DNA from: Diphasiastrum complanatum
Lineage: Eukaryota > Streptophyta > Lycopodiopsida > Lycopodiales > Lycopodiaceae
Assembly (NCBI GenBank): GCA_029204225.1
Contig: CM055097.1
Coordinates: 3,182,620-3,246,619, forward strand
Direction of reading: 5' to 3'
Length of the DNA: 64,000 nucleotides
Position 1 is the first letter of the stretch, and the number at the start of each line of letters is the position of its first letter. The position numbers and the translations under genes are program-made. The notes beneath the pieces are model-generated. The model was not told where the DNA came from, ran no database searches, and saw only the letters and a program-made list of their open reading frames with translations. Shown here piece after piece: positions 1 through 41,796 of this stretch.

Positions 1-130
1 TTCACATGCAATATATGCGCGTCGATTGGCTATTGAGTGAAATAATGGCCGTTGGAATTTTTCGAAATTATAATAATTGGATATAAAAAAGGTCAGATAT
101 TTATAGTTTAACCTTGTCAATTTTAACAAT

Positions 131-190
131 AAATTGTAGATGTGACCATACTTTTGTAGCTTTAATTGTAGATGTGACCATACTTTAGTT
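131..190. repeat. Short imperfect tandem duplication, about 32 bp unit
   Basis: The phrase 'attgtagatgtgaccatac' occurs twice about 32 bases apart in AT-rich DNA. The rest of bases 1-340 shows no gene or RNA that I recognise. Confidence 0.6.
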
Positions 191-341
191 GAAATTAATT
201 TTGGTTTATTCGATATCGACTAATCATTTTGATGATAGATGGATATTTAGTTTGATTTGATTGACAAGACTCAGAGTAATTATCATCGTAATCCGAATCT
301 CGTACATCCAACCCACCACGTTTGCAATCATTTCAAATTTT

Positions 342-353
342 TCCTATATATAC
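342..353 (+). promoter_or_regulatory. Candidate TATA box of the histone-like locus
   Basis: The stretch 'cctatatatac' is a good TATA match about 215 bases upstream of the histone-like ATG at 568. It would imply transcription starting near 375-385 and a 5' UTR of roughly 185 bases. This is inferred from position and base content only. Confidence 0.3.
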
Positions 354-567
354 TGATGGACGATGCTGAAATTTTTTTGCTTAATGTTCTTACAGTTCTC
401 TACATCCATGCATAGCGATTCAGCGCACTCGAAACAAACTTCCTTCCATTCGCTATTACTCATGCGCGCCCATCTGCTACCAGCTATCGGTTTGGTTCGG
501 CTCAAGTATCGATTCGACGCACTCGACCTGACTTCTTATCTTGGGTTCTCCTTCTTCGTGGACATTA

Positions 568-1228
568 ATGGCGTGGACCAAACAAACAACACAAGGCCAC
601 CCTAGTGGAATACCAATCTCAGGAGCGGGTCAGGAAAATCCACCACCACCACCTCGTCCACCACCACCACCTCCTCCTAGGCCAAGGAGCAGAAGAAGAG
701 ACCCACCCTGGCTAAAGGATATTCGGAAGTTACAAAAGACAAATAATCTTCTGATTCCAAAAGCTCACATACAGAGATCCATCAGACAGGTTACAAGAAG
801 TTTATTAACAGATGTGAGATGGACGGTAACAACAATTGAGGCGTTGCACACTGCATATGAGGATTTTCAGGTGAAATTTTTTTTCAGATACTATTGTTGC
901 AACTATCCATGCCAAGAGGGTGACCATCATGCCCAAGGATTTCAACATTGTGTTCAGGCTTTGGGACACATATGACAAATTTGTAGAATACGTTAGACCC
1001 GCTCACTCCTCTCCTCCAAAACAAGATTCAGAGAGGAGAAAACAAAAGCAATCTCAAGCATCCCGGCTTGTTATTCATATACAAAGCGGGAGTGTTTCAA
1101 AGAAGAGGAGGTCTCTTGACCCTCCAAATAAAGCGAGGGATTTTTCCAAGACATTTCCTGTAGATGAGATTCTTTCTTCGAGGCATTCTCCTCCCAATTT
1201 TCCTCCTAAGTCTCCTTCTCTCTCCTAA
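568..1228 (+). pseudogene. CENH3-like (centromeric) histone H3, one frameshift
   Basis: The frame from ATG 568 begins MAWTKQT, matching the MARTKQT start of histone H3. A proline-rich tail follows, then a histone fold. The alphaN region has DIRKLQK and alpha1 starts after NLLIP, which is typical of plant CENH3 (canonical H3 has ELLIR). Loop 1 has VRW; CENH3 also has Trp here, where H3 has Phe. Alpha2 is followed by IHAKRVTIMPKDF, which matches the H3 C-terminal core almost exactly. The frame breaks in a run of eight T (877-884). The second half reads in the +1-shifted frame from about 881, and one T fewer would join them through an FFSDT segment like the CENH3 FSD. There is no intron, so a retrocopy is possible. 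Loop 1 lacks the insertion of many plant CENH3s. It is a recent pseudogene, or an active gene with a homopolymer error in the assembly. Confidence 0.72.
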
Positions 1229-1541
1229 TAAATCTCCTCCTAAATCTCCTCCTCCTACCCCCATAAATATTGGTTCCCCTCCACCTGTTCTAGGAAATGA
1301 TTTAGATGATTTTGTTAATGTAAATGTAGAATCAATTTTGAATGACAATTCTTTTTCTGGTTTATTTGTATTACTTCCGTCACCCCCTGCCCTTGCCTTT
1401 GTAAATACTCCTCAATATGTACAGTATGACCAATTGTTAAACACGTATCTTAAAGCTTTAGGTCCTCGATACAGTTTTAGGATGCCGAAGACCAATGCTG
1501 GTCTCCCCCTTTCTAGTTTAGATACAGGTGAATTAGTTTAG
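1160..1541 (+). pseudogene. Possible C-terminal extension of the histone-like protein, in a third frame
   Basis: After the histone core the second frame continues for about 90 residues. They are rich in Lys, Arg, Ser and Pro, include KKRR (a nuclear-localisation-like cluster), and end at TAA 1226-1228. From about 1164 a different frame stays open to 1541, with more SPP and PPKSPP repeats and then an acidic, hydrophobic segment (DLDDF, SFSGLF). The Pro-Ser-Pro composition runs across the frame change, which suggests one original protein broken by a second indel. I do not recognise the tail. It could also be a chance open frame in a CCT-rich stretch. Confidence 0.35.
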
Positions 1542-2175
1542 GTGACAATGTAGGAGGTGGGGCCATTTAGTACTAGATGGAATTTTTCCAGACCCCATTG
1601 TTTATAGATGTAGCATTGTTTCCCCTTCAATTCATGGCTGCATTTCATTTCCCTGATTTCAAAAGTCTGCACGATGATATGCTCTAACACGTTGCTTTTG
1701 TAGATTGGATCTTTTGTAGATCAAAACACTAAATAGGTCAATATACTTGTTCAATTCTGATTTTTGAATTCACATACTGGATTTGGCCGATTTTTGGATC
1801 ATTGGTTCAGCCTAAGTGGTGGCTTATAGATTGCATATCAAATTTTAAGCATTTGCATGTAGATTTGGAATAGTCATTTTTTTGTGATTTTGTCAAAACC
1901 CTAATTTTGATTGGATCTCTAGATAGTGAGGTTGTTGGACCTCATTTGAGTGTGTTTCAATATTAGGAAGTAGCAAAAGTCATTAGATTGAGGATAGATC
2001 ATAGGTTGATCAAGATTCCATGATTCTATGTGTTGATTTGCTTGGATAAGTGCTAGAAGAGAATTTGTGAGATAGTTTCAAATCTTGGTGATTTCCTTGG
2101 AAAGCATTTGTTGTTGCTCAAAGGAGTGCTTTGTGCATTGAAGCAGGTTGAAAGAGAAGATCAGGTCATTGCTAC
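1542..2175. other. No gene seen; probable leader of the following Copia remnant
   Basis: T-rich, low-complexity DNA without a coding frame. The last 200 bases precede a Copia gag and may be its 5' leader, but I find no clear primer-binding site or LTR end. Confidence 0.35.
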
Positions 2176-3717
2176 ATGGCAACCTCAATTGGAGTCATGT
2201 TGGAAGCCAATGATAGGCTTACCTCAAGTAACTATTCATTGTGGAAAGTGAGGATGGAGTCATTTCTTGAGATGAATGATGTTTTGGATATCGTTGTAGG
2301 CTTGGAGGAGAGACCAGCAACACAACAAGATCAATTGAGGTATGACAAGAGGGCCAAGAAGGCTCTACACATGATAAAGATGAATTTTACCAATGAACTT
2401 CTCAAGGAAGTTAATAAGTGCACATCATCTTTGGAAGCTTGGAATTCATTGAAGAAGCTTTATGAATCCAAGTCTACTTCTAGAGTGTTGACTCTAAGAA
2501 GACAACTCTTTTCTTGTTTGCAAAAGAATGAAGAAAGTCCAAGTACTTTTGTTTTGAGAATGAAAGCATTGAATGATGAGTTAGCTTGCATAGATGAAAG
2601 CATTAAGGAAGGAGAGCTTATTCAAGTGACTCTTAATGGCTTTTGGATGCTCATGCTAACATTGTTCAGAGTATTGCTATTCAAAAGACTTTGCCAAGTT
2701 TGATGGATCTTCAAGAGATCTTGATCAATGAGGAATATAGGCTTCAAGCAAGAGGTGGATCTACATCGACACTTCAAGAGGATGCTATGTTCACAAAGGA
2801 CAAATTCAAGGGCAAAACCAAAAGCAAGTGGTCTAAAGGGCAAGATCAAGTGGATGCTTCTTCAAGTGGCAAAAAGAAGGATAGATCAAAGTTCAAGTGC
2901 TTCTATTGTGGCATCAAAGGACACTTTGCAAGTGAGTGCTACAAGAAGAAGAGAGATCAAGGAGACAAGCAAGGTAATCTTACTCTTGATGAGAATGGTT
3001 TGGATGTGCAAGATGCAAATGATGATGCTTTTGTGATGTCTTCATGTATGCTTGCTAATGATGGAGATCTAGATCCTTGGTGGATTTTCACACATGACCT
3101 TTCACAAAGAGTACTTCTCTTCTTTGTTGGCATATGGAGATGACAAGAGAGTGATCTACACGACCAATGATGGTGAGTGTGTAATCAAAGGGATTGGCAC
3201 AATTCATATTGCTCTCTCTACAAATAGGAGTGTTCATTTGAAGGATGTCTTGTTTATTCCATCTATTACCAAGAATTTGCTTAGTGTGAGTCAAATGCTA
3301 AGTAAGGGCCTCAAGGTGGAGTTTGATGGAGATGCTTGTTTGATCAAAAGGAACTTGATTGGAAAAGGTAAAAGGCAAGGGAAGTTGTTCAAACTTGATT
3401 CTTGTGTTATTGCTAACCAAGTTGGATGTGTTGCAAGAGAGCAAATTTCTATTCAAGAGGTTTGGCACAAAAGGATTGGACACCTCAACTTCAAGTCATT
3501 GGAGGTAATGGCAAGGAAGAAGGTTGTGATTGGTCTTCCAAATTCCTTAAGTAATTACAAGCATGTATGTGAGTCTTGTGCTTTGTCTAAGTCACATAGA
3601 CTACCTTATACTAGATCTATTTCTAGATCTACAAAGTCTTTTCAACTTGTACATTCGGATATTCATGGATTTACTACAATTAGCAATGGAATAGTCACTT
3701 TAGCCTTCTATCTTTAG
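2176..3717 (+). mobile_element. Ty1/Copia gag and pre-integrase remnant, truncated
   Basis: Three successive frames give one Copia polyprotein. Bases 2176-2640 encode a UBN2-type gag (SSNYSLWKVRMESF, LYESKSTSRVLTLR). Bases 2643-3143 continue the gag to a CCHC zinc knuckle (CFYCGIKGHFASEC). Bases 3094-3717 hold the end of the protease region and the GAG-pre-integrase zinc motif (WHKRIGHLNF, then CESCALSK), ending at HSDIHG where the integrase core should begin. The recognisable protease active site falls at the frame break near 3090. Integrase core, reverse transcriptase and RNase H are missing, so it cannot transpose. Two frameshifts and the loss of the 3' two thirds show old decay. Confidence 0.85.
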
Positions 3718-3772
3718 AATTACCTTTGTCGATCTGGCTTTAAGTAGATTTGGGTCAGATCTATATACAATA

Positions 3773-4404
3773 TGTTGGAAATGGTGAACTCATGCAACCA
3801 TTCCCTGGCACTCCATGAAGACGAAACGAAGGACGAAAGAAAAGTGTTCGTCCTTGTAACGAAAAGACACTTTGGACAGAGAGCACGAACCAAAGGAAAA
3901 CAATTCGATCTGACAGGTGGCAGCTCGACGAGCGTGGAGTCTTGGACTATCACGCTCAGCCGCCAAGGGCCACGTCAACAGGGATAATTTTTAAACTATT
4001 ACTTAGTGACCCCCAAATAGATGATAAAAAGAGAATAAACAAAAACTATTCATAGATATACATAAGTGAGATACAGAAGAGAACATAGGCGTATTCAAGC
4101 ACTATAAGCTATGCATGAAAGTCTGCCAATGAGCAAAACATAGCTGATTTGTGAGAGGACTGACAGGCCGCCAACGAGTGAGACACTGATCAACTCACTC
4201 ATAACAGTAATACAAATTACAATTGCTCTCTTCTCTCGATCTTTTATCATTTGTGTCGTTTGTTTGATAGAATAATTTTGTGTCTATGGTTGCTTAGGAT
4301 CCTGCATTAATTTCGTAAGCTAGCCTAAGTAGGTAGCAAAACTCAAGTGTAGACAAGATCAGGAGCTCTTCTTGGTGAGATGAAAATAATCATGAACATC
4401 TACA
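3773..4404 (+). repeat. Probable 5' LTR of a second Copia element
   Basis: The segment starts TGTTGGA and ends CTACA, directly before a classic Copia primer-binding site at 4405. A gag start codon follows at 4441. No partner LTR was found in the window, so the left edge rests on the TG start only. Confidence 0.45.
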
Positions 4405-4416
4405 TGGTATCAGAAC
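4405..4416 (+). other. Copia primer-binding site (initiator tRNA-Met type)
   Basis: 'tggtatcagaac' differs by one base from the usual plant Copia site TGGTATCAGAGC, which pairs with the 3' end of initiator tRNA-Met. It sits 25 bases before the gag ATG. Confidence 0.7.
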
Positions 4417-4440
4417 AATGATTTCCTAAGACAACACAAT

Positions 4441-5610
4441 ATGGCTACAACGATCCAAACGAGAATAGCAATCAATCTTGATGGAGCAAACTACCGAATA
4501 TGGAAGTTTAAAATCAAAATGCTTCTGAAGGGTGAGAGCATCAAATCAGTGACCGATCTCACAGAAGAACAGCCTTTAGAGGGAGACTCGAGAAGAGCTG
4601 AGTGGATCAGAAAAGATGAGCATGCAATGGCAATCATCGTTTCATTTATCAGTAGCCTCCTCAATAGGACGACCATCCACTAGACCAAAAACTGAACCTG
4701 CCAATGGCAACGATTGAAGATTGAAGATTGAATATTGTATGAGCAGCTATAAAGCATGGGAAAGACTAAAACAGAACTACAAAGTAAAGACTGTCACTTT
4801 GGTGATGCACCTCCATAATCAGTTGCAAGCCATGCGATGGGATGACAATCAGTTAGATCAGCATGTCGAGAAGATTAGAACAATCTTCGCTCAACTTGCT
4901 GTATCTGGACAGGAGCACCAAGTCTCAACAAGGCAACAACTGATGCACTTTTTGAAATCATTGTCGACATCCTTTCAGGAATGCTCATTCTGAGCTTACC
5001 AAACATGAGATTCGAGCGAGCTGTCAATCTTGTCGCTGATGAGAGACAAAGGAGAAGGAAGCAGTGATCAGGAGAAGGCCCTTTTCACAAAGGGAAGGAA
5101 GAAGAACAAAAACAAGCCCAGCTTCGACAAAATGAATCCAAAGTCTTTGAGTAGAGGCAACGACAACCAAAAACCTCCTCCTGTGATCACTGTGACAAGC
5201 CGGGACACACAGCCAACAAATACTGGTTTAACCCGACAATACCTTACATGCACTACAATAAGAAGGGTTACTCTACATACGATTGCAGATTCAACCTGAA
5301 AAGAAAAAACAAGGCTGAGAAAGCAAATGTTGCAAAGTCATCAAGGGATGCTGACAAAAGCGATGAAGCCTTCACAATATTCAATGAGGCTTCAACAAGC
5401 TACACAAAAAAGTATAACAAAGATCAATCCCAACAATTATCCAATACAATAAACATAAAGATCCAAATAAAACATGAGAGATGGAGCAAGAAAGAAGAGC
5501 AAGGACATCCGATTTCAATTCGATTGTTGAGATGGATTTTTCATCGAGGGATTGGTCCTGTCGGAAGATCCCCAGCGGGGGAAGGGCCGACACTACCCTT
5601 ACGCGAGTGA
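4441..5610 (+). mobile_element. Ty1/Copia gag remnant with two degenerate zinc knuckles
   Basis: The frame from ATG 4441 begins with a gag N-terminus (LDGANYRIWKFKIKMLL) and stops at about 4683. The gag resumes at 4721 (SYKAWERLKQNY, LHNQLQAMRW) and again at 5030. In another frame near 5185 a zinc knuckle CDHCDKPGHTANKY has lost its last Cys to Tyr. A second one follows near 5247 with only its final Cys left. The sequence after about 5500 no longer resembles gag and no pol is present. It has at least three frame breaks and is inactive. Confidence 0.75.
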
Positions 5611-8747
<3,137 letters not shown>

Positions 8748-8969
8748 TGGTGACATTTTTTTCTTACTAATTTTTAAGACTCCCATTGATTGTCTACATT
8801 ATTTATCCCTCTTATTTCGTTGCACCCATTATGTTAGATACTGGATCCCCTAGTCAGAGGTTAGGCCATAGTCGCGGGTCATCTTGCCTTTCCTCTATGA
8901 GCCCTAAGTGAGCTTTTTAGTTACCTTGACCAGTTGTCTTCCTCGCATTAGGATAGGGTCTTACAGCAC

Positions 8970-10254
8970 TTGAGGGCTCGACGCGAGGCTCGTAGCTCCT
9001 CCCGATTGGTTGAGTACACATCATCGACCGAGGAGATTCAGTCCACTCCTTGTGTAGACCAGTCACATGTTTCCCTATATAGAAGCTCTTGGAAAGGCAA
9101 GATAATGGATTTTAAAGTATCACCTGCCGGTCAATCTATCACGGAAGTTTTAGTTCATCATGCTTATCTTCACAATGAGCTCAACATTCATGATTTGAAT
9201 CCAAATGATAGAAGAAAATGCAATTGTAAGTTTTCAGATTTAATTTCTTTTAAGGTTAGCATTTTCTTTAAATTATATTTTTCTTGTGATATTTTTGTTG
9301 GTTTTGCAGATTTGTATCCATCAAATTCCATTGAATGGCAAATAGTTCAATCGATTGCAGGAATAATCGATGTCATACATTCAAGTATCGGTATTTTACG
9401 ATATAAAGGTCGTTCTCCAAAATCACTTTTAGAGTCGGGAGTTTTCTTTTATGATCACATCTATTTTTCTGATTAAAATGGTCTAGTAGGTAGATTAGAG
9501 CCATATCCTCTACCAAATTTTTTGAGTAAGGAATGGATTTCTCCTGATGCAGCAATTTCAAAAAGTTTTTGATCTAGGCTATATATTGATATTCAAAGTA
9601 TATTAAAATGTAGCACTGGATCAAAGAATAATAGATTAAGTTGGTATCTACCTTTTAATATTTTTGTTGATTTTTTTTCCAAATGCAATGTTCGAAGAAC
9701 GAAAACAATGTTTATTTGTAAGGACTTGACTACTAAAATAATCGCCGAGTTGTTGGATGATGGTTGGGATACAAAACAAAATCAACAAGTTGAGTGCAAA
9801 GTATGTTACTCATCCATGACATTTAGATATCACATCGAAAAACAAATGCTCACTTTGCTGCTGTATTATAGAAGATGGATTAAATCCAAAAATGTTTGGA
9901 AGCCACTTGATCAAGATTTTGTTATAAACCCTCAAGAACAACTTCAGATAACAATGAAAAGAAATGACAACATTTTTGCAATGGTTGAGGTTGAGGAAGA
10001 TTGGTGTCTCAATGACATTCAATCAGAACTAGACATGCTGCAATTCGATTTACCTCAGTACTATCAATTTCGATTGAATGGTGTAAAGGTACGTTATGCC
10101 ATGTAAAAATATTTCTTTTTTTCTATTTCTAAGTGAATCAGTTTTATAAAATATATTAACTAAAACAATTTCTCTTGTGCAGGTAAGAGTAAGGCAGAAA
10201 GGCCATATAAAATGCAAAGATATTGGAACATCCATCGAAATTGAAGATCCATAG
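8970..10254 (+). pseudogene. Unrecognised plant gene, three exons, two in-frame stops
   Basis: One frame runs from about 8970 to 10254. It includes a probable 84-base intron (9226-9309, GTAAG...TTTTGCAG) and a clear 94-base intron (10089-10182, GTACGT...TTGTGCAG). The frame stays in phase across both. The last exon ends with IGTSIEIEDP and TAG 10252-10254. Two nonsense codons interrupt exon 2: TAA at 9474-9476 and TGA at 9570-9572. Both could come from single C-to-T changes (CAA, CGA). Coding similarity of style continues on both sides of each stop. The C-terminal 70 residues (MVEVEEDW, LPQYYQFRLNGVKV, IKCKDIG) look like a small beta-rich, possibly ubiquitin-like fold; that is a guess. A C-x2-C pair (CKVC) lies nearer the middle. 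I do not recognise the family. The first ATG in this exon is near 9105, so the true start is uncertain. Confidence 0.5.
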
Positions 10255-10277
10255 ATTATGAACTATGGAATTTTGTA

Positions 10278-10544
10278 TTATATGTAATACAATTTTTTGT
10301 ATACATCATCTTTGAAAATATATGAACCACTTTTTCTATAAGGCTCTTTCATTTCTATGAACTTTGTTTTCATGGTGCAAAACACAATGTAATTGCAATT
10401 GGATAAAATGAGTTCTCGATAACAAGATTCATTGTCTCCTGTAGGAAATGCATTATCTCCATTGGGGAGATCTTCATTCACTTGAATTCTAGTAACCACT
10501 ACAATCAGATATCGAATCGACGCTTGCCCTTGTTGAAGTCTCAT
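10278..10544 (-). pseudogene. Decayed duplicate of the last exon of the Ulp1-like gene
   Basis: On the minus strand, SPMEIMHFLQETMNLVIENS can be read near 10480-10400. It matches FPMEIMHFRKETIKLVIKNS in the intact terminal exon at 10967-11107, including the run to the Pro-Val/Ile-Ala segment. A stop lies just upstream and the tail differs. This is a partial tandem duplication of the gene's 3' end, about 0.6 kb away. Confidence 0.55.
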
Positions 10545-11357
10545 ATATATCGGTTGTATTTTTTGTTTTCATTGCCTTGGTCTGTATTGTCCTTGTCTTG
10601 GCATATTTGGATATGTTCAGATGATGATCTGATCAAAGCTTTGCTGCAACAAATCTAAATGAACTAATGTCGCATGTTTGGATTGGTTGTGACAAAGGTT
10701 CGATCAGATCATCATTCAGAACTTATCCAAAAAAAACCATGGTAAAGACAAGGCAGACCAAGGCTATGAAAAACAAACATGTCGAAATACCGTAGAAATT
10801 GAAGATGAATGAATCATAACCTCATTTGATAAGAGAAAAAAAAAAAAACAAGTAAGAACAACCATAGAAAAACTATAAATATATTTCTATTAAAATTTTT
10901 TGTACATGTGTCTCATCCACATCAAGTGAGACGAATATTTAATCAGTATCGACTATCTATGATCTCTTAATCCATTTCTCCAGTTGGAAGTAGCTTGGGT
11001 GGAGAACACTCGGCCACTGCAACTGGATATGAATTTTTGATCACAAGCTTTATGGTCTCCTTCCTGAAGTGCATTATCTCCATTGGGAAGACCTTCGGGC
11101 ATTTAAACTGAAAAAAAAAAAACATAAACACAGTTAAATGTAATTAATCAAAGATCAATTAATAGAAATTTGAATATAAAAAAAACAAAAACACAGGTAA
11201 AAGTTATTAATCGAAGATTACCTCTTCCAGATTTGGAAGTCCATCTTGTAGAGCAAGCCAATTAAAAAAGTGTTTGGCATTGCATACAGTATACCAACCA
11301 CAACTAACAGAATCAACTTGCTGGGAGGGTTGCAGAATCCAAATTTTAACATTATGA

Positions 11358-11516
11358 GATATCGGATCAACGCGCAGGATGTTATAATTAAATCGACAAC
11401 GGACACAAGCGCGCGTCGAATCGATATCCAAAAAATATTGTTTTAATATTGGATCAACGTGCACGTTATGAAAAGAAATCAAACAATAACTACAAGGGCG
11501 CATCAAACCGATATTG
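11358..11516. repeat. Two tandem units of about 90 bp, each with inverted ends
   Basis: Unit one begins ATATCGGATCAACGCGC and ends GCGCGTCGAATCGATAT. Unit two begins ATATTGGATCAACGTGC and ends GGCGCATCAAACCGATATT. Each unit therefore has inverted ends of roughly 17-19 bases. On the minus strand the units encode two similar stretches with CxxC and VDPI. A related phrase, 'tatcgattcgacgc', occurs near 508 in the histone-like 5' region. Confidence 0.5.
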
Positions 11517-11620
11517 ATAAATTTTTACCTCTACATCAACAATTTTTAGTTTCGTATATGCTTTTGTATTTGGTATTGGAAAGGATTCCAATATTTTCTG
11601 GATATGGCTCTTGGCAATTT

Positions 11621-11624
11621 TGTG

Positions 11625-11697
<73 letters not shown>
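11621..11697. repeat. (GT)n microsatellite
   Basis: A TG dinucleotide array with one C interruption at 11631. It lies inside the Ulp1-like pseudogene. Confidence 0.95.
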
Positions 11698-11701
<4 letters not shown>

Positions 11702-11829
11702 GAGTTCATCTTTAAACAACTGGATTACGCAACCCTCATCATTGACGTATAAGGACAACACATATAAGATCCAATAATCACTGCAATCAGAAAACAATAA
11801 ATTTATGAGAATCAATGTGAAAACAAAAT

Positions 11830-12012
11830 TCATATGAAAAATTCACATAATAAAATCTGAAAAAAGACACTTACTTTGTTATGTATGACAACACGAGAAT
11901 TGGATTTTGGTGTAGAATCCTCTCTAGCATGCTCTAGACTTGATATCTTCACAAAATCATTGATAGATATGATTTTCTCCTTCATAACCTGAAACACAAG
12001 CTCTGATACCAT
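11830..12012 (-). other. Open frame starting at the LTR/primer-site junction
   Basis: The ATG is formed by the last A of the LTR and the first TG of the primer-binding site (12012-12010). It opens a 60-residue frame (MVSELVFQVM...). About 130 bases downstream a good splice donor (AACAAA|GTAAGTG) occurs, followed by the acceptor at 11780. It may be element leader, or an upstream exon of the Ulp1-like gene now fused to an LTR start codon. I do not recognise the peptide. Confidence 0.3.
12000..12011 (-). other. Copia primer-binding site
   Basis: The minus strand reads TGGTATCAGAGC immediately after the LTR end TTTCACA, the exact classic site for initiator tRNA-Met priming. Confidence 0.75.
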
Positions 12013-12661
12013 GTGAAAGATTTTAGATCCTTAAGATCCAATCTACTTGAATGATCTTTGGTTAGAAAGAGAAATACACTACCAATTTCACCAATGTAGA
12101 AAAATCAGCATCTACACACAATTTGAGATGCAAACACTAATAGAACTTGATCAAACTTGAATAAAAAGATTACGTACTGTTGCTGTCCGTACAAAACCAG
12201 CAATCTACTGTATTTCACACGTGTGGATCCCAAAATAGCAAATATAGATCATTCTACACATAGAATTGCAAGCAATCACCAAGATAGTGCACCAATGGAT
12301 AGTAGAACCCAAGAGAACCATGTATAAGCATGAAATGAGATAGAGAAGAGAGAAGATGACTCTCTCCATGAGTTACATCCTTTTATAGCAGGTCCAAACC
12401 CTGTTTGGCCACTTGGCTTTCCCATCAAAATGCTAACCCTACTAATTTTGGGTCTAGATTCAATGTACCCAACTTTTTCAAATTGAATCTACTCAAACTC
12501 GCATTCTATCTTTCCCACACTTTCAAAAAGTGTTTATTCAAATGAAATTTAGACTAATGAACTTTGAAAAGTCAACCTCTAAGTCTAAAACAAGTTCTGG
12601 CCTCAATATGCCAAATATGGAAATATTGCAAAATGTGATGAAACTAGTTGAATATTTCACA
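12012..12661 (-). repeat. Copia LTR, 650 bp, minus strand
   Basis: The minus strand starts TGTGAAA at 12661 and ends TTTCACA at 12012, so the 7-base ends are perfect inverted repeats, with the primer-binding site next. It contains a TATA-like 'ttataaaagga' near 12380. A diverged copy in plus orientation lies at 37446-38030. Only about 150 bases of possible internal sequence follow before Ulp1-like exons begin, so most of the element is gone. Confidence 0.75.
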
Positions 12662-14647
12662 ACCATGATCATTGGACAAGGATGGAGAGTTTCAAATTCA
12701 CGATGATTTTGGCTTGTGTTGGTAGATTTTCTACCAAGATGACAATCAGCTGAAGGTATACTTTCTGGGGTCAGTTAATTCAAAAATTGGAGTAGCTAGA
12801 CTTGTGATTATGAACCCAACCATGGCATCTTGTTGTGTAAGATCATGAGTTGAGAAAAAACTAGTTAGTTACATTAAAGTTCGTTGGATGTAACCCAGAA
12901 GTGAAGAATTCAACAATTATTGAAAGTGACTGCCAAAAAGCTTGAGGGTGAGTGAGAAGAAGAGTCGAAGGAGGGCGGGATCGGGATCGGGCAATCCAAG
13001 GGAGGATAGTCGATTTGATGTGCTGGTGATCAGTGTTAGCGACTAGCAGAATTGACGAGGGAGCGAACATCTTGTGCATGGAGTCTTATAAGAAGTTATT
13101 GTTATTGGAATGAGAATCCTTGGAGTACTTATCATTTCTATGTACTATTTTGTTGCTCGAGTCGTGTGTTGGGTCCTTGAAGCATTCTGATGTTGAATGA
13201 CGTGAATTGTGAATGTGGGCAACAGTTTTATATCGAGTAAGTAAGAGATTATAGATCTACAGTTTGTGAGTAGTAATCTTGTAAAAAGCACAATAAATGA
13301 GTAGATCTAATTTGTAGTTAACCGAAGTGACAGGCTTGAGTTATGATGTTGAATGCTTAAGAAGTAGATTGTTAATTCCTTCTTGTCGTGTTTCATTCTT
13401 TGTAATAAAAGTTGATGGAAAGGGATCTATTGTGAGCAACAAGTATCTTCGGTTAATTTGAATAGAAGTCATAGGATTTTTAAATGGCAGATTCTAGTTC
13501 TAAGCAAGTGTTGATGACAATTGAGAGAAATCAGTATTAGAAGTTTTTAATCAAACATTGGTGCCGTTGACGACTCTCGTAGATTAGTGCAAAATACGAC
13601 AAGATTACAATCACAATCTCAGATGCATACACTTTTTTCTTGTTTTATTTTCTTAGATATTTTCTTGAGGAAATTGTTGACATGCACCATAGCATTGTTT
13701 CTACCTGAGCAACAATCTTTACAGTTCACCGCATACCTTTTTTATTTTTATTTTCATTTATTATCCTACAATTAGCATTTTGGTAATTATTGCTTAATCC
13801 ATAGCCATCATTTAACCGAACCCTTTACATACAAATCCACAACACCTTTGTGCTTCACCATTCTTTCCTTCATACCTATACCCAACCACTCTTTGTAAGG
13901 GGAGGATAAACAAGTAGTATTGTAATACTCCTTCGTATAAATAATGAATACTGAAAATTATGATGAGAGGTATCATCCAGAACTTGCAAGATGCAATTTG
14001 GAGATTTCACTTTTATGTGATTTTTGATAATTGTTGTAACAAATACTCTATGTCAAGCATGTTCCATTATGCATGTGCCAATTGTGAACACTATATGTAT
14101 GAGCTTTCTATATGTTGAAGCACCTGTGCTCTCTGAGCTCAATCAACAACTCTGATTGGGAAAGGGTGTCCTCCCGATGAACTTCACCCATAGAAACTAT
14201 GACATGCTCTTGAACTTGGGGACCTGCAGACCCCTGATATATGCTTGAACTTGATTCACCTAGTTGTTGTGGAGTCTTGTGAGGTAGTTATCACTAGGAT
14301 GTCACTATCAATCACCTTATCCTAGTGGTGAATAACTCTATACAGTTTGATTGGAGTAGGAAGTCAAAGTGATATATCTAGTTACACCAACTTTACATCA
14401 TATGATGGTTAATCAAGATGTAGCATGCACTTGCGCAATTATGTTCTGGTAATTAGAACTTGTGAGATAGATGGTAAAAGACTAGCATATAGATGCTCTA
14501 CTTCTCTCCAAGAGTCAACAAGGGAATAATTTCTATCTCACAAGTGCCAATATGAAAGTGCCCAAGACAAAGTAAGAACAAGTAATAGATATAGATAGAG
14601 CTGAGTAATTCCTTCATCAACATTTCTGGAATATTCTGTGTGGAAGA
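12662..14647. other. Two kilobases without a gene; possible LTR end at 13557
   Basis: No coding frame was recognised. At 13551-13575 'tcaaaca' is followed by 'ttggtgccgttgacgac', which resembles an LTR end plus a Gypsy-type primer-binding site. A decayed Gypsy LTR may therefore end at 13557. No partner LTR or domains follow. Confidence 0.35.
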
Positions 14648-15502
14648 TGTTAGCAATTGTGCTAACACAGAGAAAAATAAAAAGAAAGAAATAAAACTCC
14701 GTGGCATGTGTTTTGTAAGCCCACGTATGAGTATCTGTCAATAAACTTCCACCATGGCATGTGTTTTGTAAGTCCATGAGTAGAAGCTTAAAATAATAAT
14801 AAAGTAGCTTAAACTTAGATTTAAAACTTAGACTTAGGAAACTTAAGATTAGAAATATTTGTCTTAAGTTTTCCTAAGTTAGAAACTTTGAAGTTCTAAA
14901 TCCTAAGTTAGAAGTTCTAGAATGGCTAGAAATAAGTTAGTCCCATAAGTTCTAGAATGGCTAGAAATAAATTAGTCCCATAAGTTAGTGGATACTTATG
15001 GAAGACCCTCCTTGCCATAAAAGAAGAGGTTTTTGCCATGTAAATAACACTTTTGAGATTATGCTAATTGCTCTCTTTTGAGATTATCTTGCTATTTCAC
15101 TTGTGTTCCCTTTGGAAAGATACATATAGCTTGAGGGAAGGTGCTCGGGTCTCCTCTTGCCTCCTTTTCATCAGTTTCTATATTGTGGCATATTCTTATA
15201 TGCTATTTGCTTAGTTAGCCGCAATCTATTATTTCCATTCCCATTAAGAGTTAATTTAGGATTTAGTTAACTACCTTGCTAGTTGTGTAAGCCTTAGTGA
15301 GGTCCTGTTATTTGTCATTTTTAGATAGTTCATTCCGTTCTAAGCACTAGTTGGGTAAGCCTTAGTGCTTTCACCATTATTCTTATTTTCGCATTTCTGT
15401 TTGAAGCTTGGGAGAAACTTAAAAAGTGGACGATCCTCTCTATACTACACCGCATTGTGAGTAGATCTAGCCAACACGCACAAACAAGATTTACTTCCAA
15501 CA
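14648..15502 (+). repeat. 5' LTR of a non-autonomous LTR element
   Basis: It begins TGTTAGCAATTG and ends TTCCAACA, and matches 17141-17922 closely over its length. It carries an extra direct repeat of 35 bp (14913-14982) absent from the 3' LTR, and an extra AT-rich insert near 14670. The 5 bases before it (GAAGA) match those after the 3' LTR (GAATA) at four of five positions, a likely decayed target duplication. Confidence 0.88.
14913..14982. repeat. 35-bp tandem duplication inside the 5' LTR
   Basis: The unit beginning 'agttctagaatggctagaa' occurs twice with one base difference. The 3' LTR has a single partial copy, so the duplication arose after insertion. Confidence 0.85.
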
Positions 15503-15520
15503 TTGGCGTTGTTGCCACTT
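15503..15520 (+). other. Probable primer-binding site of the non-autonomous element
   Basis: 'ttggcgttgttgccac' directly follows the 5' LTR. It resembles the plant Gypsy-type site TGGCGCCGTTGCC with two or three changes. Confidence 0.5.
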
Positions 15521-15599
15521 TTTTACGCTTTTTCTACTTAGCTTCTTTTTCTTTGATTTTTTCGCCTCCGTGTTGTGTGCTTACTTGCTTGCTTTTTAT

Positions 15600-17020
15600 C
15601 TTCCAACCACAACACGAGTCTTATCTTCAGGTCCTACACGAGCTGCAGAGCAACTTATCAAGCCGAAAGGAAGCAACAAAAGTGTCAGAATTCGTTGATA
15701 TGACTGTAGCCATAACAGACCATGATGATCTTTATCAAGAATTATGTTGAGCAACTTCTCTTGGCCAAAGATATTCTAAAAAACTTTGGTTTTGATCTCA
15801 CACACTTCTGTGACCAGCAAAGCGAGAGCCTGCTGATCCGAGCTGCCTACTCACATATTCGGATGAGTTCCACACATTCAAAATTACATCCAAGGGTGGC
15901 CATTCTCAGCATCATCAACATCTCTGCCAAGAATATCCAGAATATTGGATTTTATAATCTGGGAGAGACGATCCATGGCAAGGGCACGCGTTATGATGCC
16001 AAATATTTCATCAAGTTTCTGGCAGAGGACGGCAAAACCATTGCCCAAACCAATGACGGAATCACTATTCGTCTCCTTACCGATTCCCATCTCAGAGCGG
16101 CATCAGAGATCCGTGTTGCCATGATTAAGGTTCATACCATCAAAATGGGTCGCATCCCACCGAGCAATCTTTTCTCCTTGACGCTCACCATGGATGATCC
16201 CACTCAAAACTACAAGAGGGCAGAGAAGGTATCAAACAAACTCTGTGGGGCCCTAAAATCCAGGAAACCAACCACCAAATGTGGATATCTCCTCCACATG
16301 TTGGTCACCAAATAGTTGGGGCATCGAGCGGCCGCTGCTACCAAAGAGCTCGAAGACATCTATCTGAGCACCCAAAAGCGTGCCACCCCACAAATATCAG
16401 CTGAGTCTGTCTCACCTGCACCACCAACAAAGAAGCAGAAGGGCAAGTGTAAAACTCATAAAGAAGCAGTCAAACTCCTGGATCCACAACCCCTCTGGTG
16501 CCACCAGCTCTTCCTACAAAGCAAGACCTCCATGGCACGGTATCTTGAAGCACCCTCCTACATGCGTACAAGTCCCTATTATTATCCGGTAGCGAGGCGA
16601 GCACCATTTCCTACCACCAAGGGCAAGAATCGGCTATTTTGGCCCAAGCTCACAGGCGTCGATACTGGCAACTTAGTCGAAGACATGGTCACCAACTGCC
16701 ATGCATTCTACCAGAAGCACCATGGCAACCCGGATCGCAATGTCAGATATTTTGTGGACAATTGTGGCCTGGTAGCATTTTTGGTAGAACTGAAGGGTTT
16801 TTGGGATCGAGGGCTTTCCCCAATAGCCATTGATATCAATAAACCACTACGCACACAAGAAGACCACATCAACGTAGCAAGGCTTTATTATCGCGCCACC
16901 CTTACTTTGGCCCTGCACGTTGATATGGTGGAGCTATGGAAAACCACAATTTTGTACAGGGTTTGTTCCATTACTACAAACCCTGCCCTTCCTGAACAAA
17001 TTACGGTGGCAAATGATTGA
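15600..17020 (+). CDS. Unrecognised gag-like protein of the LTR element, split by TAG
   Basis: The internal region codes for one long protein with no reverse transcriptase or integrase. A short lead in one frame (to about 15748, ...DHDDLYQEL) passes into the frame from ATG 15722. That frame is open to TAG 16313-16315 and then continues in the same frame to TGA at 17018-17020, about 430 codons in all. The first half is compact and globular. A Lys-rich stretch (PPTKKQKGKCK) lies just after the stop, and a Trp/Tyr-rich half with FWPKLTGVD and YFVDNCGLVAFL follows. No zinc knuckle is visible. The position between primer site and polypurine tract suggests a structural (gag-type) role, as in TR-GAG elements, but a captured host gene is possible. 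The TAG could be a mutation or a readthrough site. Confidence 0.5.
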
Positions 17021-17126
17021 GGGCATCAACAACAAAATTTACCATTCCCGACAACAACAATCTCGCCTCCAAGAAGCTCAAAAAATCCAGGACGAACTTC
17101 GATTGGTGTGGGACCACCAATCCAAT

Positions 17127-17140
17127 AAGGAGGGGGATAA
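17127..17140 (+). other. Polypurine tract before the 3' LTR
   Basis: 'aaggagggggataa' lies directly upstream of the TGTTA start of the 3' LTR, the usual plus-strand priming site. It fixes the element's orientation. Confidence 0.75.
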
Positions 17141-17922
17141 TGTTACCAACTGTGCTAACACAAAGAAAGTTTTGCAAGCCCACGTATGAGTATCTGTCAA
17201 TAAACTTCCACCATGGCATGTGTTTTGTAAGTCCACGAGTAGAAGCTTAAAATAATAATAAAATAGCTTAAACTTAGATTTAGAACTTAGACTTAGGAAA
17301 CTTAAGATTAGAAATATTTGTCTTAAGTTTTCCTAAGTTAGAAACTTTGAAGTTCTAAATCCTAAGTTAGTTCTAGAATGGCTAGAAATAAGTTAGTCCC
17401 ATAAGTGTTAGTGGATACTTATGGAAGACCCTCCTTGCCATAAAAGGAGAGGTATTTGCCATGTAAATAACACTTTTGAGATTATGCTAATTGCTCTCTC
17501 TTGAGATTATCTTGCTATTTCACTTGTGTTCCCTTTGGAAAGGTGCATAGCTTGAGGGAAGGTGCTCAGGCCTCCTCTTGCCTCCTTTTCATCGGTTTCT
17601 ATATTGTGGCATGTTCTTATTTGCTATTTGCTTAGTTAGCCGCAATCTATTATTTCCATTCCCGTTGGGAGTTTATTTAGGATTTAGTTAACTACCTTGC
17701 TAGTTGGATAAGCTTTAGTGAGGTCATGTTGTTTGTCATTTTTAGATAGTTCATTCCGTTCTGAGCACTAGTTGGGTAAGCCTTAGTGCTTTCATCATTA
17801 TTCTTATTTCCGCATTTCTGTTTGAAGCTTGGTAGAAACTTAAAAAGTGGATGATCCTCTCTATACTACACCGCATTGTGAGTAGTCTAGCCAACACGCA
17901 CAAACAAGATTTACTTCCAACA
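17141..17922 (+). repeat. 3' LTR of the non-autonomous LTR element
   Basis: Starts TGTTACCAACTG and ends TTCCAACA. It is 782 bp against 855 bp for the 5' LTR, mostly through indels. The element as a whole spans 14648-17922 (about 3.3 kb). Confidence 0.88.
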
Positions 17923-24585: not shown

Positions 24586-26946
24586 TTATAGGGAGATTCC
24601 AAACCTACGACAACGAATGCAGATTTTTTCTAGTTCTTCGAGGTGCTTGTTCGCGGAGGAATGGACACCTAGGTCATCAAGATAGATCTCGACAATCCTA
24701 TGTAACAAGTCTTGGAAGGCCACTTGCATGACCCTTTGAAACGTTGAAGGGGCATTGCATAAGCCAAAAGGCATGACATTATAAGCATAAACGCCGTTTT
24801 CTGTTGCAAACGCAGTTTTGTGTCTATCTTCTAGAGCAATTGTACCGAAAAATAGCCACTAAACCCATCCAAAAAGTTGAAAGCTTCAACTCCTGCCATT
24901 TTCTCAAGGATTTGTGTAGTTAAGGGTAAGGAAAAATGGTCTTTTTTTGTAACTGCGTTAAGATTCTTAAGATCGGTGCAGATATAAAGCTTGTCGTTTT
25001 TCTTGGGAACTACCACAATGGGTGATACCCAATCAGTATGTTGGACTTCATAGATGAAGCCAACATCCAGCAATTTCTTAATATCTTCATCGATCCGCTC
25101 GCGATAAACTCGGTATGGCTTAGTTGGAATAGACTTAGTGTTCTCCTCTAAAGGAATAGTATGGACCGCTATTTCAGGTAGGACTTCTTTCATTTTAGTA
25201 TAATTCCATGCAAATACATCCCTGTATTTGTGAAGTAAGGTTTCTAGATCAAGAAGTTGACCTGGCGTGAGGTGGGCTTCGACATGAACAATGCGATCCA
25301 CATCCTTAGGAGGATCTTTGAGATTTAACTCTATGGTTCTGGCTGGGCCTTCAAAGGATTGGGAAACTTTTGTAGGTTCCCTTTGTGGTTGTGGCAGCTG
25401 AATGACTATGTCATCAAGTGTAAAGTCCTTAAACTTGCTTGGTAGATCAAAGGCTGGTTCCACAAAGTTGCCCAGAACTTTGGGAATCACTTGTGTGGAT
25501 GTGCTACCAGATGTGGAAGCGTGATCGGAGGGTATGTCTTTTGTCTGTGCAGACAATAGCTTGATAGGTTAATTTCTCGTGCATCTGTTTTTGACGCTCG
25601 GTTAGTTTTGTATCAATAATTTTGGTTTTTTGTAATCGAGGTTTTCGAGGTTGTGGAGGGGACGGTGTTGCCCCCTCTCTTATCATGTCATCATTTATTG
25701 TATCCCTGACTTCATCCGGGACGTGTATATATCTTTGGTTTTGGTCTATAAGTTGTTGTGTTGGGTATATTGGAGGTCAGTTGGACGTGAGCCAAAGGCC
25801 CTGGTGACTTGATCTCTTGTGGAATTGATTTTGGCAGATAATGTTGGGCATCTAGATAAAGGAGTACATGTTCATCCGTCATTTCAACATCATTTACGAA
25901 AAGAATACCTTCTTCCGAAACATAGGTTGTAGAGACGCTAGGTTCTCCTGGGCACCAAGCTATAGGAATAGGTTCAATCATCATAAGCGGAATGATGAGT
26001 GTATCAATGTTTGTAGAAGATGGTAGATTATACACATCCTCTGCAGCAGTTTAGATACGACATCTGTTGAAATCAGCACAGTCCACAGTAACCAGTGCTT
26101 GACCCCAATTTATTATGTCTGTTGATCTCGTATAGTGGCCTTTCGGTTGGATCAAGTCACTATCTGATTCGTCATAAGTTGTTGATAACCAATCATCATA
26201 AACTTTAGTTGAGTTTACATGGCCAGTTGAGTCAACAGTGACTCGTTTGTCGTTATTGCCAAAGGTAATTTTGCTATGCTTCCAATCTTGGACAACGCCT
26301 GCCATCTATAGCCAAGGTGTGCCAAGAAGGAGTTTATATGTATTTGCATCATCTGGTAAATCAAGAATGACGCAATCAATGAAAAATTTGACACCTGCAA
26401 TACATACATTGATATTCGATAAATGACCGCGACAGGGTCTGTGACTCACTGATCAGCCATGCGAAGTTTGTAACGTGGCTGATCTAAGGTATGGAATCCC
26501 CATGACTTTTCTAGTGATAAAGCCATTATGTTTACACCTGATCGACTATCAAGGATAGTGGATACTGTTAGATAATCTTTATAGGTCATAGGTAAGGTGA
26601 TGCTAGTCCCCTTAGCAACACCGATGTTCATCAGATTCATAGGAATCTAGGGAATCTCTAGGTTCTCGTCTGGTTTTCGCTCTTCATCTGGGATAGTAGG
26701 CAGCTGAAAACTGTGATGGATATAACTTTGGAGACTGGTGAAAGACTTTATTGCGCTATGGAAGGGCATGGTGATTTGAGCCTTCAAGAGTTTAGAGAAT
26801 ACTTCGAGTCCCTGTAGGGGTTGCTCTTTGTCGAGGATCAGAGCAGATAACGGACTGTTAGTTTTCTGTTCTTCCTGCAAAAACTCAATTCTTCTTTGTT
26901 CCGTGTGTGGGTCTTGGTAATCTCTTGGTAAAGTGAAAGCTGTCAA
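24586..26946 (-). mobile_element. Ty3/Gypsy polyprotein remnant: protease and reverse transcriptase
   Basis: Reading the minus strand downward: a gag-like segment (26946-26647), then an aspartic protease core at 26640-26446 (TILDSRSGVNIM, a damaged D-T/S-G site). A linker with scattered frames follows, then reverse transcriptase from 25556 (LTPGQLLDLETLL, IVVVPKKNDKLYICTDLKNLN, FNFLDGFSGYFS). After a frameshift near 24830 it resumes at 24774 with MPFGLCNAPSTFQRVMQ and the catalytic IYLDD. The sequence stops at about 24586 with RCRRFGISL. Several frameshifts and stops make it inactive. RNase H and integrase scraps lie further along on the same strand at 22.75-22.21 kb. Confidence 0.85.
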
Positions 26947-31710: not shown

Positions 31711-31740
31711 GGCTCTTTAATCTTTGTAGATTTTGATAGA

Positions 31741-33936
31741 TTGTGCCCATTCAAAGCAGGATCGCAATTGGGTTGTTTCCAAAATCACAATCCCAGAAGT
31801 GTAGGTGAATTTAGAATCTGCAGCATTGCTAATGGGCGATATCTGATCAACAAGAAGCTAAGCAAAGACATAAAGGATCCTCCCAGTCGGTTCAGCCTTG
31901 GCACACTTACAGCCCAGTATGCAGATCTCCTGCAGGGTTGTGCAGACAGAAGGGATGTGGCTGAGGGTAAGGCAGTCCATGCAGACATTATCAGGGTGGG
32001 TTTGGAGTCGAACAGATTCTTAGCCAACCATCTTGTCCATATGTATGGAAAATGTGGGAGTTTACAAGATGCACGAGCAGTGTTTGATAGCATCTGTGAT
32101 CCAAACGTTTATTCGTGGACCTCAATGATTGGAGCATATGCTCATCATGGGTATGGGAATGAAGCTTTGAATCTGTTCAGGCAAATGCAGAATGCATGTG
32201 TGCGGCCGGATAAGGTAACCCTAGTTACTGCTCTTAATGCGTGCTGCAATCAGGAAGCCAAAAAGGAAGGTGTGCTAATCCACTCTCAGGTTATGGAGAG
32301 TGGTTTGGAGTCGGATATAGTTGTGGCTTGCGGGCTTCTGAACATGTATCGTAGATGTGGAAGCCTTGAGGATGTTTGGGGAATATTCACCAAAATGCAT
32401 GAACGCGATGTAATTGTTTGGAATGTTATGATTGCAGCGTGCATCGAACATGAGCATAGCAAGCAGGCCGTGCAGCTCTTTGGGCAGATGCAGCTAGAAG
32501 GCACAATTCCAAACCAAATTACCTTCATCGGTATTCTTGGTACGTTTTCAGCTCCTGATGATGTAGCAGAGGGTGCACTATTACATGCTCACATTGCGAA
32601 AGCAGGTTATGAAGAGGATGTTTTTGTGGGGACTGCACTTGTGAATATGTATGGCAAGTGCGGAAGTTTAGAGGATTCTCGATATGTCTTTGATAGAATG
32701 CCAGAAAAGAATGTGGTTTCCTGGAATGCAATGTTGTCTGTCTATGCGCAATCTGGGAATGACAGAGAGGTTCTTCATCTTTTTGAACAAATGCAAAAGG
32801 ACATGAAACCAGACAAGGTTACTTTTCTGAATGTTCTTGATGCCTACGGCAATCTATCAGCCTTACGATATGGCAAGCACATCCATTCTCTCATTGAAGC
32901 TGGTAAATTACAAACAGATCTTACCATAGGAAATGCTCTTATTAGTATGTATGCAAAATGTGGAAGCGTGGAAAATGCTCGCAAGGTATTTGATAGCATG
33001 ATTGAGCGAGATGTGATCAGCTGGAATACCATGATAGCAGCTTATGGCCAGCATGGCTATGGGGAAGAAGCACTTCAACTTTTTCGTTCTATGCAGAAAA
33101 GCCATGTGCTTCCCAGTAAAATTACTTTCGTTAACATTCTCTCGGCATGCAGTCATGCAGGTTTGTTAGATGAGGGGCATAAAATTTTTTCTTCCATGAG
33201 TGCAGATTATGGCCTTCCACCTGCATTGGAGCATTATGGTTGCATGGTCGACTTGCTTGGACGATTAGGCCAATTAGATGAAGCAGAGAATATTTTAAAA
33301 CAAATGCCCTTTCCAGCTGATTCTCTTGTATACATGACCTTGCTTGGCGCATGCAGATTGCATGGAGATGTCGAGCGAGGTAAACGAGTTGCAGAGCACC
33401 TTTTTCAGATTGATGCTCGTAAATCTGCTCCATATGTGGTGTTATCAAACATATATGCTGCAACTGGCAGATGGGATGATGTATACAGGGTCAGACAGAA
33501 AATGATTGACAGGGGTGTGAAGAAGGAACCAGGATGCAGCTCCATTGTGGTCAAGAATAGAGTTCATGACTTCGTTGTAGGCAAGAGTTCCCATCCTAGA
33601 TTTAGGGATATATTTGTTGAGCTTGAGACCCTGACTAGGAAGATGAAGCGGTTAGGATATGTGCCTGATACACAGTTAGTACTTCACGATATAGAAGGTG
33701 AACAAAAGGAACACCTTCTTAGCCATCATAGTGAAAAACTGGCTGTCACCTTTGGAATCATTAACACACCTCCTCAAACTCCCATCCAAGTTGTCAAAAA
33801 CCTTAGAGTCTGTGAAGACTGTCATAATGCTGTTAAATTCATTTCTGTGATAACTCGACGAGAAATTGTGCTTAGAGATACTCATCGCTTTCATCGTTTT
33901 AAAGATGGCATGTGTTCTTGTGGAAACTTTTGGTAA
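31741..33936 (+). CDS. PPR protein, PLS class with E and DYW domains
   Basis: One uninterrupted frame (up to 731 codons) encodes back-to-back P, L and S pentatricopeptide motifs. Repeats of the type VHMYGKCGSLQDARAVFD and VYSWTSMIGAYAHHG recur about every 100 residues. An E region with KKEPGCSSIVVKNRVHDF precedes a DYW cytidine deaminase domain. The domain has the catalytic HSEKLA (His663, Glu665) and the zinc pair CEDC (Cys691, Cys694), then CSC near the end. The protein ends CGNFW instead of the usual CGDYW. Such proteins bind organelle RNA and convert specific C to U. Numbering is from 31741, a TTG; the frame opens after TAG 31708-31710. The first in-frame ATG is 32041, inside a PPR motif, so the true start lies on an unseen exon or has been lost. 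No targeting peptide can be judged. Confidence 0.85.
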   Translation: MCPFKAGSQLGCFQNHNPRSVGEFRICSIANGRYLINKKLSKDIKDPPSRFSLGTLTAQYADLLQGCADRRDVAEGKAVHADIIRVGLESNRFLANHLVHMYGKCGSLQDARAVFDSICDPNVYSWTSMIGAYAHHGYGNEALNLFRQMQNACVRPDKVTLVTALNACCNQEAKKEGVLIHSQVMESGLESDIVVACGLLNMYRRCGSLEDVWGIFTKMHERDVIVWNVMIAACIEHEHSKQAVQLFGQMQLEGTIPNQITFIGILGTFSAPDDVAEGALLHAHIAKAGYEEDVFVGTALVNMYGKCGSLEDSRYVFDRMPEKNVVSWNAMLSVYAQSGNDREVLHLFEQMQKDMKPDKVTFLNVLDAYGNLSALRYGKHIHSLIEAGKLQTDLTIGNALISMYAKCGSVENARKVFDSMIERDVISWNTMIAAYGQHGYGEEALQLFRSMQKSHVLPSKITFVNILSACSHAGLLDEGHKIFSSMSADYGLPPALEHYGCMVDLLGRLGQLDEAENILKQMPFPADSLVYMTLLGACRLHGDVERGKRVAEHLFQIDARKSAPYVVLSNIYAATGRWDDVYRVRQKMIDRGVKKEPGCSSIVVKNRVHDFVVGKSSHPRFRDIFVELETLTRKMKRLGYVPDTQLVLHDIEGEQKEHLLSHHSEKLAVTFGIINTPPQTPIQVVKNLRVCEDCHNAVKFISVITRREIVLRDTHRFHRFKDGMCSCGNFW

Positions 33937-38030: not shown

Positions 38031-39725
38031 AGATCCTTTATGGATTTGGCAACATATATGTTTGATAACCTATATATGGAGCATATTTGCAAGCATCAAG
38101 CATGCCATGCACAGGTTTTCTAAGACACGAGCTCTCCGGTTGAGATTTCAACACAGGGGGGGCTCCGATTGGGATGTGATCATGAGGGGACGGGCGGAGC
38201 GTGGACAAGGTTGTGGGTTTCTGATGTAGAAGGTGTTGGAGTTCAATGGGCAACAATGCCAAATGTTTACACAAATGTTTACAGATCAAAGGATCTAGAG
38301 CATTTGTTTACTACGGTTCTTTTGATCCTTGCTTACAACTTCTACAGCTTGGTATTCTGCCTGTTACTAGGCTTTCAGGGCATTCCTTATATGTGTTCTT
38401 GATATTACAATGCCAAACCAGGCAGAAGGGAACAGATTCTCATTGTAGTATATTTTTGTCCTGCCTGTCAGAGGACTACTCAGGGTCGAACTCTCTTGAA
38501 CGCACTTGCATTCTAATAGAGATGCAAGCCAAGAACGCTCATTCACAGATCAGAGTGTAGCCCATATGAACATTCAAAAGATTCTATAGCTATCTACTCA
38601 TAAAACGAACTGAATCAGATCCTAAGTATTACTAAACTGAACTACACTTGCATAAATTGACAAAACAAGAAACAAGAACTAATCTACAACATGTTAGTCC
38701 AAGAATCAAGAAACCAACCAGTTTTTTGATTCTTGGACATCCCAAGAACATCAAGAACTGGATTGTAAAGAGATATGCAAGAATTACACCACAGATCCAG
38801 CCTATTTAGTTTACCTGAATGCTGGTTCCTACATTAATCCACAAACAAGAAAAGAAGCTAATCCACTCTACAAAAGTAGCAATTCTAATCCATTCTACAG
38901 TCCACAACCACACACAAAAGGAGGGAAGGGCAAGATCATAAATGCATCACTCAAGAGACAAGAATGATCAAGGAGCTCAATGGATGCACCAAACTCGTGA
39001 AGGCTCTTCTCATTTCAGCATGGAGTTGATACAATTCACAAAAAGCTCCTCTTCACAAAGAGGGAGTCTCTTAAATAAGCAAGAGAGCTCCCTAGGTGGC
39101 ATCCTAGTGGAATTTCCACATTTCACAAATCACAAGTGGAATAATGCTCTCCACTAGAGGTCACCATCAAAAGGTGGCTCACTCTACTTTCTTTAAGAGG
39201 GGTCTACTTGCATTTATTACATTTGCTTAGAAATACTAGTTCCTACATGGTCATTCCATCTTTCGGGATTCACTATGAGGCTTACACAGTTCTTGCTTGC
39301 CATTCCTAACTAGCATTTCTTGGCTCCCATACTCGGCTCTCAGTCTTCATAATTCTCATCTTCTCAGAGACCTCCTCGGTCTAAGGTGAGAGGTGCTCTT
39401 GAGTTGCTCTGTCCGAGTATCTTGGGGATTCGTCAGAATCAGACAACACTTTCATGCCTAACAACAATGGTGCTTTGGGCCACAACATATAGGAATGCAT
39501 CTTAGTGTTTCTCTTGGAGGGGAGCAAGAGTATAAAAACACATTTCTGGTCGTGAATTCAATATAAAAAAATTCACTTAGTCCTCATTTTATAGTGTTTT
39601 CAAAATCGTATGGTTGTTGCTAGAGGAGATGGCGTAAGCCATTGTTCCAGTGTATAATTGCATCTATATTGGACTATGCAAATATACATGCTCTTTCCAT
39701 ACTTCAATGTTTATGTCGTTTTTAT
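38031..39725. other. No recognisable gene
   Basis: A slightly GC-richer patch at 38130-38290 has open frames on both strands but no known motif. The rest looks like non-coding repeat-type DNA. Confidence 0.35.
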
Positions 39726-40171
39726 AATTATTTGAACACCTTGATATACATTATTGAGAATCATCATCTTCATTGTGCGTCTTCTTAGACTCGCAAGGGC
39801 ATAAATTTGGTCTAAGAAGTAACACAATGTGTCATCCACAATGCCTTGGTTCTAAAATTTCAACTCAAGCAAGATTGACTACTCAACATCCAGAAGTTGC
39901 CTTTCCATTTTTTTGGGAAAAAAAGTTTTAAGTAGAGGACGTGTTAGGTGCTTGCTATGAATGAAAGTCATTAAAATTATATAGTGCAATAAATGGGCCA
40001 AAATACAACCAATCAAATGTCCTAAGATGAGTGCAATTATGTTAGTTACCTTGTCATGCTCAAAGGGACTATTGTTTTTGTATTCTCAATGCAGAACTCA
40101 TTTTCAACAATTGGAAACTTTACATATAATGTGGTGTACGTTGAATGGCTAATATCTCGTGAATGTTAATG

Positions 40172-41737: not shown

Positions 41738-41748
41738 CCCCCCCCCCC

Positions 41749-41792: not shown

Positions 41793-41796
<4 letters not shown>

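Follow-up and report, generated by a model that had tools for sequence, protein, structure and literature searches.

A diverged, CENH3-like histone H3 gene copy with two frame breaks and a C-terminal extension in Diphasiastrum complanatum

The locus and the architecture of the histone gene

The window analysed here, a stretch of 64,000 nucleotides from D. complanatum, carries close to its start a gene of the histone H3 family, which is composed of an N-terminal tail, an H3 fold and an extension of about 185 residues. Its neighbours include a PPR-DYW gene, a RING gene and an O-methyltransferase gene (best PDB match: caffeic acid O-methyltransferase), and these indicate no more than a land plant; the seed-free plant of the sequence-only reading does not follow from them. 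The PPR gene (31711-33936) is intronless and encodes an E motif and a DYW deaminase domain, which ends in NFW rather than the usual DYW. Repeats and mobile sequences occupy other parts of the window. A Ty1/copia-like element lies at 52300-58614; its copia-type ORFs, one of which encodes an integrase core domain, are flanked by direct repeats at 52300-53298 and 57630-58614, each about 1 kb long and 90.7% identical to the other. At 39725-48834 a unit of about 3.5-3.9 kb is present up to three times in direct orientation, with blocks 63-98% alike in an ungapped comparison, and at 14710-17846 lies a direct duplication, its copies about 2.4 kb apart, with blocks 94 and 98% alike; two ORFs inside it matched no Pfam family at E 0.001. 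Long CT/AG dinucleotide microsatellites occur at 45168-45644 and 8648-8745, one of which reads as a Leu-Ser repeat ORF. On the reverse strand, a 245-codon ORF (24831-25568) resembles by eye part of a gypsy-type pol, but had no Pfam match at E 0.001.

The histone gene lies on the forward strand and passes through three reading frames, with the following features:

568..717, + strand: N-terminal tail, residues 1-50; the translation starts MAWTKQT, has 12 prolines in residues 25-37 and then an Arg-rich stretch
667..882, + strand: H3 fold part 1 (alpha-N, alpha-1, loop 1 and most of alpha-2), frame 1; from PF00125 and PDB H3 chains
877..884, + strand: T8 run, first frame break, from frame 1 to frame 2; adjacent profile positions on both sides
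881..961, + strand: H3 fold part 2 (end of alpha-2, loop 2 and alpha-3), frame 2; from PF00125 and PDB
962..1216, + strand: C-terminal extension part 1, frame 2, with PPKSP at its end; from the open frame, the codon-usage scan and the motif
1217..1226, + strand: TC run, probable second frame break, from frame 2 to frame 0; from the position of PPKSP in either frame
1224..1541, + strand: C-terminal extension part 2, frame 0, 105 residues closed by a TAG stop; from the open frame, the codon-usage scan and the sequence

Frame 1 opens with an ATG at 568 and runs for 135 codons to a stop at 973-975, with the match to the H3 fold confined to its first 105 codons. The second frame stops at 1226-1228, and the third, frame 0, is open from 1164 to 1541; none of the three pieces contains an in-frame stop. 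At the second break, the TC run separates PPKSP in frame 2, which finishes at 1216, from PNKSPPKSP in frame 0, which starts at 1224. A sequence-only reading of this DNA had placed the start ATG at 568, the T8 run at 877-884 and the end of the frame at 1228, all of which are exact. The one-base frameshift that it located in the T8 run is real, but it is not the sole break, given the second one at about 1217-1226; nor does the likely coding region end at 1228, since the frame that follows the second break runs open to 1541. Neither part of the extension had a Pfam match in the profile search, and no second copy of the histone gene was found within the 64-kb window.

The H3 fold, the tail and the coding signal

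The identification of a histone H3 core was borne out by two kinds of comparison. Against the Pfam family PF00125 (Histone), the first half matched with an E of 3e-10 over profile positions 24-94, and the second half with an E of 1.1e-5 over positions 95-121 (26.1 bits, just below the cut-off of 26.4), such that this check, which the sequence-only reading had proposed, put adjoining profile positions on the two sides of the T run. When the T run was read through, a single match over positions 24-121 was obtained (76.6 bits, E 2.6e-21), in which 98 residues align to 98 profile positions without net gap. Against PDB, the first half matched 168 distinct sequences at E up to 0.1, the top one being the H3.3 chain 4h9s (6.8e-08), and the second half matched 139 sequences, with a best E of 0.0028; both halves match H3 chains. 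The match to the H3 fold is thus far beyond chance, and the fold is complete, but only with the T run read through. That alignment has no intron anywhere across the fold, in agreement with the earlier description of the gene as intronless. A 17-base intron across the T8 run (CAG, then GTGAAATTTTTTTTCAG) was considered and rejected, since excising it would leave the reading frame out of phase and the histone alignment shows no gap at this place; plant introns are longer than 17 bases.

The N-terminal tail is about as long as that of H3 and non-canonical. It retains TKQT at residues 4-7 and has no lysine between residues 5 and 50, so the proline-rich tail with TKQT as its only conserved motif, as first described, is confirmed by translation.

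Coding signal was followed with a codon-usage scan for which three other genes in the window served as training set. Its score includes a stop penalty, and is therefore not independent of openness, and its values are mostly near or below zero. The scan favours frame 1 in windows 611-730 to 851-970, frame 2 in windows 881-1000 to 1091-1210, with the exception of 1001-1120, and frame 0 in windows 1121-1240 to 1481-1600. Frame 1 is not favoured in windows starting before about 611, and hence the tail is unsupported by the scan. Within the first 2100 bases there are three open runs, of 147, 125 and 117 codons. In 2000 random sequences from a Markov-1 model, the third-longest run never came to 117, and the longest was at least 117 in 9.8%.

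Relationship to CENH3 and to plant H3-like genes

To place the gene, it was aligned with three H3 rows and six CENH3 rows, of which the plant CENH3 and Cse4 rows are provisional. Identity amounts to 38-39 of 95-100 residues for the H3 rows, 37/99 for human CENP-A, 38/99 for Cnp1, and 35-43 of 96-100 for the provisional plant CENH3 and Cse4 rows; by this alignment, overall identity cannot separate H3 from CENH3.

At the six sites where the three plant CENH3 rows, all provisional, agree with each other and differ from H3, the gene has the CENH3 residue four times, the H3 residue never and another residue twice. Where two of these three rows agree (16 sites), the corresponding counts are 5, 3 and 8, and when the comparison is restricted to the PDB-verified CENP-A and Cnp1 rows (5 sites) they are 2, 1 and 2. 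Taken alone, human CENP-A differs from H3 at 35 sites, of which the gene has the CENP-A residue at 6, the H3 residue at 9 and another at 20, and the provisional row of Arabidopsis CENH3 gives 13 CENH3, 8 H3 and 18 other residues at 39 sites. None of 5000 runs of simulated drift from H3 attained the plant-site count of 4 (mean 0.2), and 2.8% attained the PDB-only count of 2. A further count, of 26 CENH3-only against 1 H3-only residues over the union of the six CENH3 rows, was dropped, being biased by the larger size and greater diversity of the CENH3 set. In a tree of ten rows the gene stands beside Arabidopsis CENH3, with support of 87/54 and a branch of 1.68; there is a published warning that uncharacterised divergent H3s are not assignable to CenH3 by tree position (PMC2939574). 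Twelve of the 29 positions that are constant in the nine reference rows are changed in the gene.

Loop 1 gives a divided answer. At its end, where H3 has Phe84, the gene has the Trp found in five of the six CENH3 rows (the provisional maize row has Tyr). Its length is that of the three H3 rows, 1-6 residues short of all six CENH3 rows, and a longer loop 1 is a CENH3 trait (PMC4308911). The earlier designation as CENH3-like thus has mixed backing: the diagnostic residues and the loop-1 Trp speak for it, while loop 1 lacks the CENH3 length and the N-terminal tail, though non-canonical, is not extended.

With plant CENH3 the gene shares Trp-Thr after loop 1, LLIP, FSD and KDF, as judged from the provisional rows, together with a non-canonical tail; it differs in its H3-length loop 1, its short TKQT tail, its lack of introns, its long C-terminal extension and its broken frame. 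With human CENP-A, a PDB row, it shares SRRR...WLK.IRKLQK at the start of the fold, a likeness that may be convergent, and the loop-1 Trp; the loop 1 of CENP-A is two residues longer, and the gene sides with H3 more often than with CENP-A (9 vs 6 of 35). A third point of comparison is offered by the plant H3-like (HTR) genes, for which the published criteria are a degenerate tail together with departures from H3.1/H3.3 at positions 31, 41, 87 and 90, and in which introns may be absent (PMC4357034). Our gene has a degenerate tail and deviates at 41 (Arg), 87 (Thr) and 90 (Glu), position 31 being not alignable, and on the criteria of PMC4357034 it is formally an H3-like gene. The CENH3-type residues of the fold and the C-terminal extension set it apart from these HTR genes, and on sequence grounds it is probably an H3-like gene derived from CENH3.

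Long C-terminal extensions are, to our knowledge, rare on H3-type histones. Neither a C-terminally extended plant H3 nor a proline-rich, intronless CENH3 was found in a literature search at the level of titles and the openings of abstracts. CENH3 genes of bryophytes, lycophytes and ferns have already been used in print (PMC11687628), so that a CENH3 in such a plant would not be new in itself. Among viral contigs, nine stretches matched a pattern from the first half of the histone and none was confirmed, and among prokaryote contigs the same was true of 446 matches to the read-through histone and 23 to the window's PPR gene; plant genomes as such are absent from these collections, and the outcome says little.

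Breakage, coding past and competing readings

As written, the gene is dead, because its first frame lacks alpha-3. Lacking alpha-3, an H3 product cannot assemble the H3-H3' four-helix bundle or, in consequence, a nucleosome. Some constraint seems to have acted on the gene in the past, as gauged by comparison with neutral drift to the same identity. Hydrophobic H3 sites are retained at 24 of 26 positions, which drift from H3 equals in 1.1% of runs; against the provisional Arabidopsis CENH3 row the figures are 23 of 27 and 13.2%. Absence of stops, taken alone, occurs in 6-9% of neutral runs, and hydrophobic retention and absence of stops occur jointly in 0.2% of 1000 runs from H3 and in 1.5% from the provisional Arabidopsis CENH3 row. 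A test for conservative replacement gave 0.00, 0.03, 0.04, 0.11, 0.11 and 0.31 for six references. Altogether, a coding past and a late breakage are favoured, though not proven, by these drift controls. Both breaks lie in slippage-prone runs, a situation that fits mutation and assembly error alike.

Of the features of a processed pseudogene, the gene has a disabled frame and a fold without introns. The interval 1-2200, which includes the region downstream of the gene, has no run of seven or more A, so that retroposition is no more than a candidate origin. With two TATA-like sites in 1-2200, where 2.9 would be expected at the rate of the whole window, there is no promoter evidence. The CENH3 of plants usually resides in one or two genes with introns. 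Published plant CENH3 genes that have introns include that of cotton, with 7 exons (PMC4308911), and those of rye, with 7 and 4 exons (PMC5732303).

The reading that we prefer, with a probability of about one half, is that of a single-exon, strongly diverged plant H3-family gene of probable CENH3 descent, which gained a C-terminal extension and was broken by two indels. It would have originated as an intronless copy of CENH3, either a retrocopy or an old intronless duplicate, and would have acquired the extension with its PPKSP-type repeats. A period of evolution as a coding gene would probably have followed, and a late death through two slippage-type indels, one in the T8 run where alpha-2 ends, the other in the TC run of the extension, would have left a first frame that yields a 135-residue product without alpha-3. 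In short, the locus is most likely no working centromere histone but a dead copy of a gene, a pseudogene whose breakage came late.

The same data can be arranged differently. If both breaks were assembly errors, in the T run and in the TC run, the gene could be a live paralogue of H3 or CENH3, an unlikely alternative. In its favour, the runs are of types often miscounted by sequencing, the three pieces have no in-frame stop, and the drift controls favour a coding past. It needs, however, two independent errors within one gene of about 1 kb. That the three comparison genes are unbroken over 3978 bases also speaks against it, yet few such runs occur in their coding parts, so this says little. 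It is rather doubtful that an ordinary H3-like gene gave rise to this locus as an old copy, processed or degenerate, which drifted without function, with its CENH3-type residues due to chance and its later frames fortuitous. The changes at constant positions, the frequency with which neutral runs escape stops, the H3-length loop 1 and the agreement with the published H3-like criteria would all suit such a history; the plant-CENH3 sites (4 vs 0 of 6, from the provisional rows), a gapless fold of 76.6 bits, the joint test of hydrophobicity and stops, and the continuation of PPKSP across two frames argue against it.

Two other explanations carry less weight. A copia-type element with broken frames starts about 0.6 kb downstream (gag from 2176), and one may imagine that a mobile element carried the histone-fold gene and supplied the extension from its own sequence, but this seems improbable, as no repeat pair surrounds the gene in 1-16000 (the start of the window cuts the upstream side, where a repeat may yet lie), no other copy of the gene lies in the window and the extension belongs to no Pfam family. 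More improbable still would be expression despite the breaks through polymerase or ribosome slippage on the T8 and TC runs; both breaks do sit in slippery runs, but two slips in series would be required.

It is tempting to speculate about a working second centromeric-type H3 of a land plant whose regulatory tail has become C-terminal, with the breaks being either assembly errors or bypassed by slippage, although we consider this to be quite unlikely. Such a protein would have its N-terminal tail reduced to TKQT and polyproline, and its tail of about 185 residues, with PPKSP/PNKSP repeats, might offer putative S/T-P kinase sites.

For the dead gene copy that we favour, the interest is moderate and lies chiefly in the C-terminal extension: if dead, the gene is an ordinary, though well preserved, pseudogene. 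A CENH3-derived copy with an open frame, in spite of 12 of 29 constant positions changed and an added extension, would instead show the limits within which the H3 fold can be remodelled.
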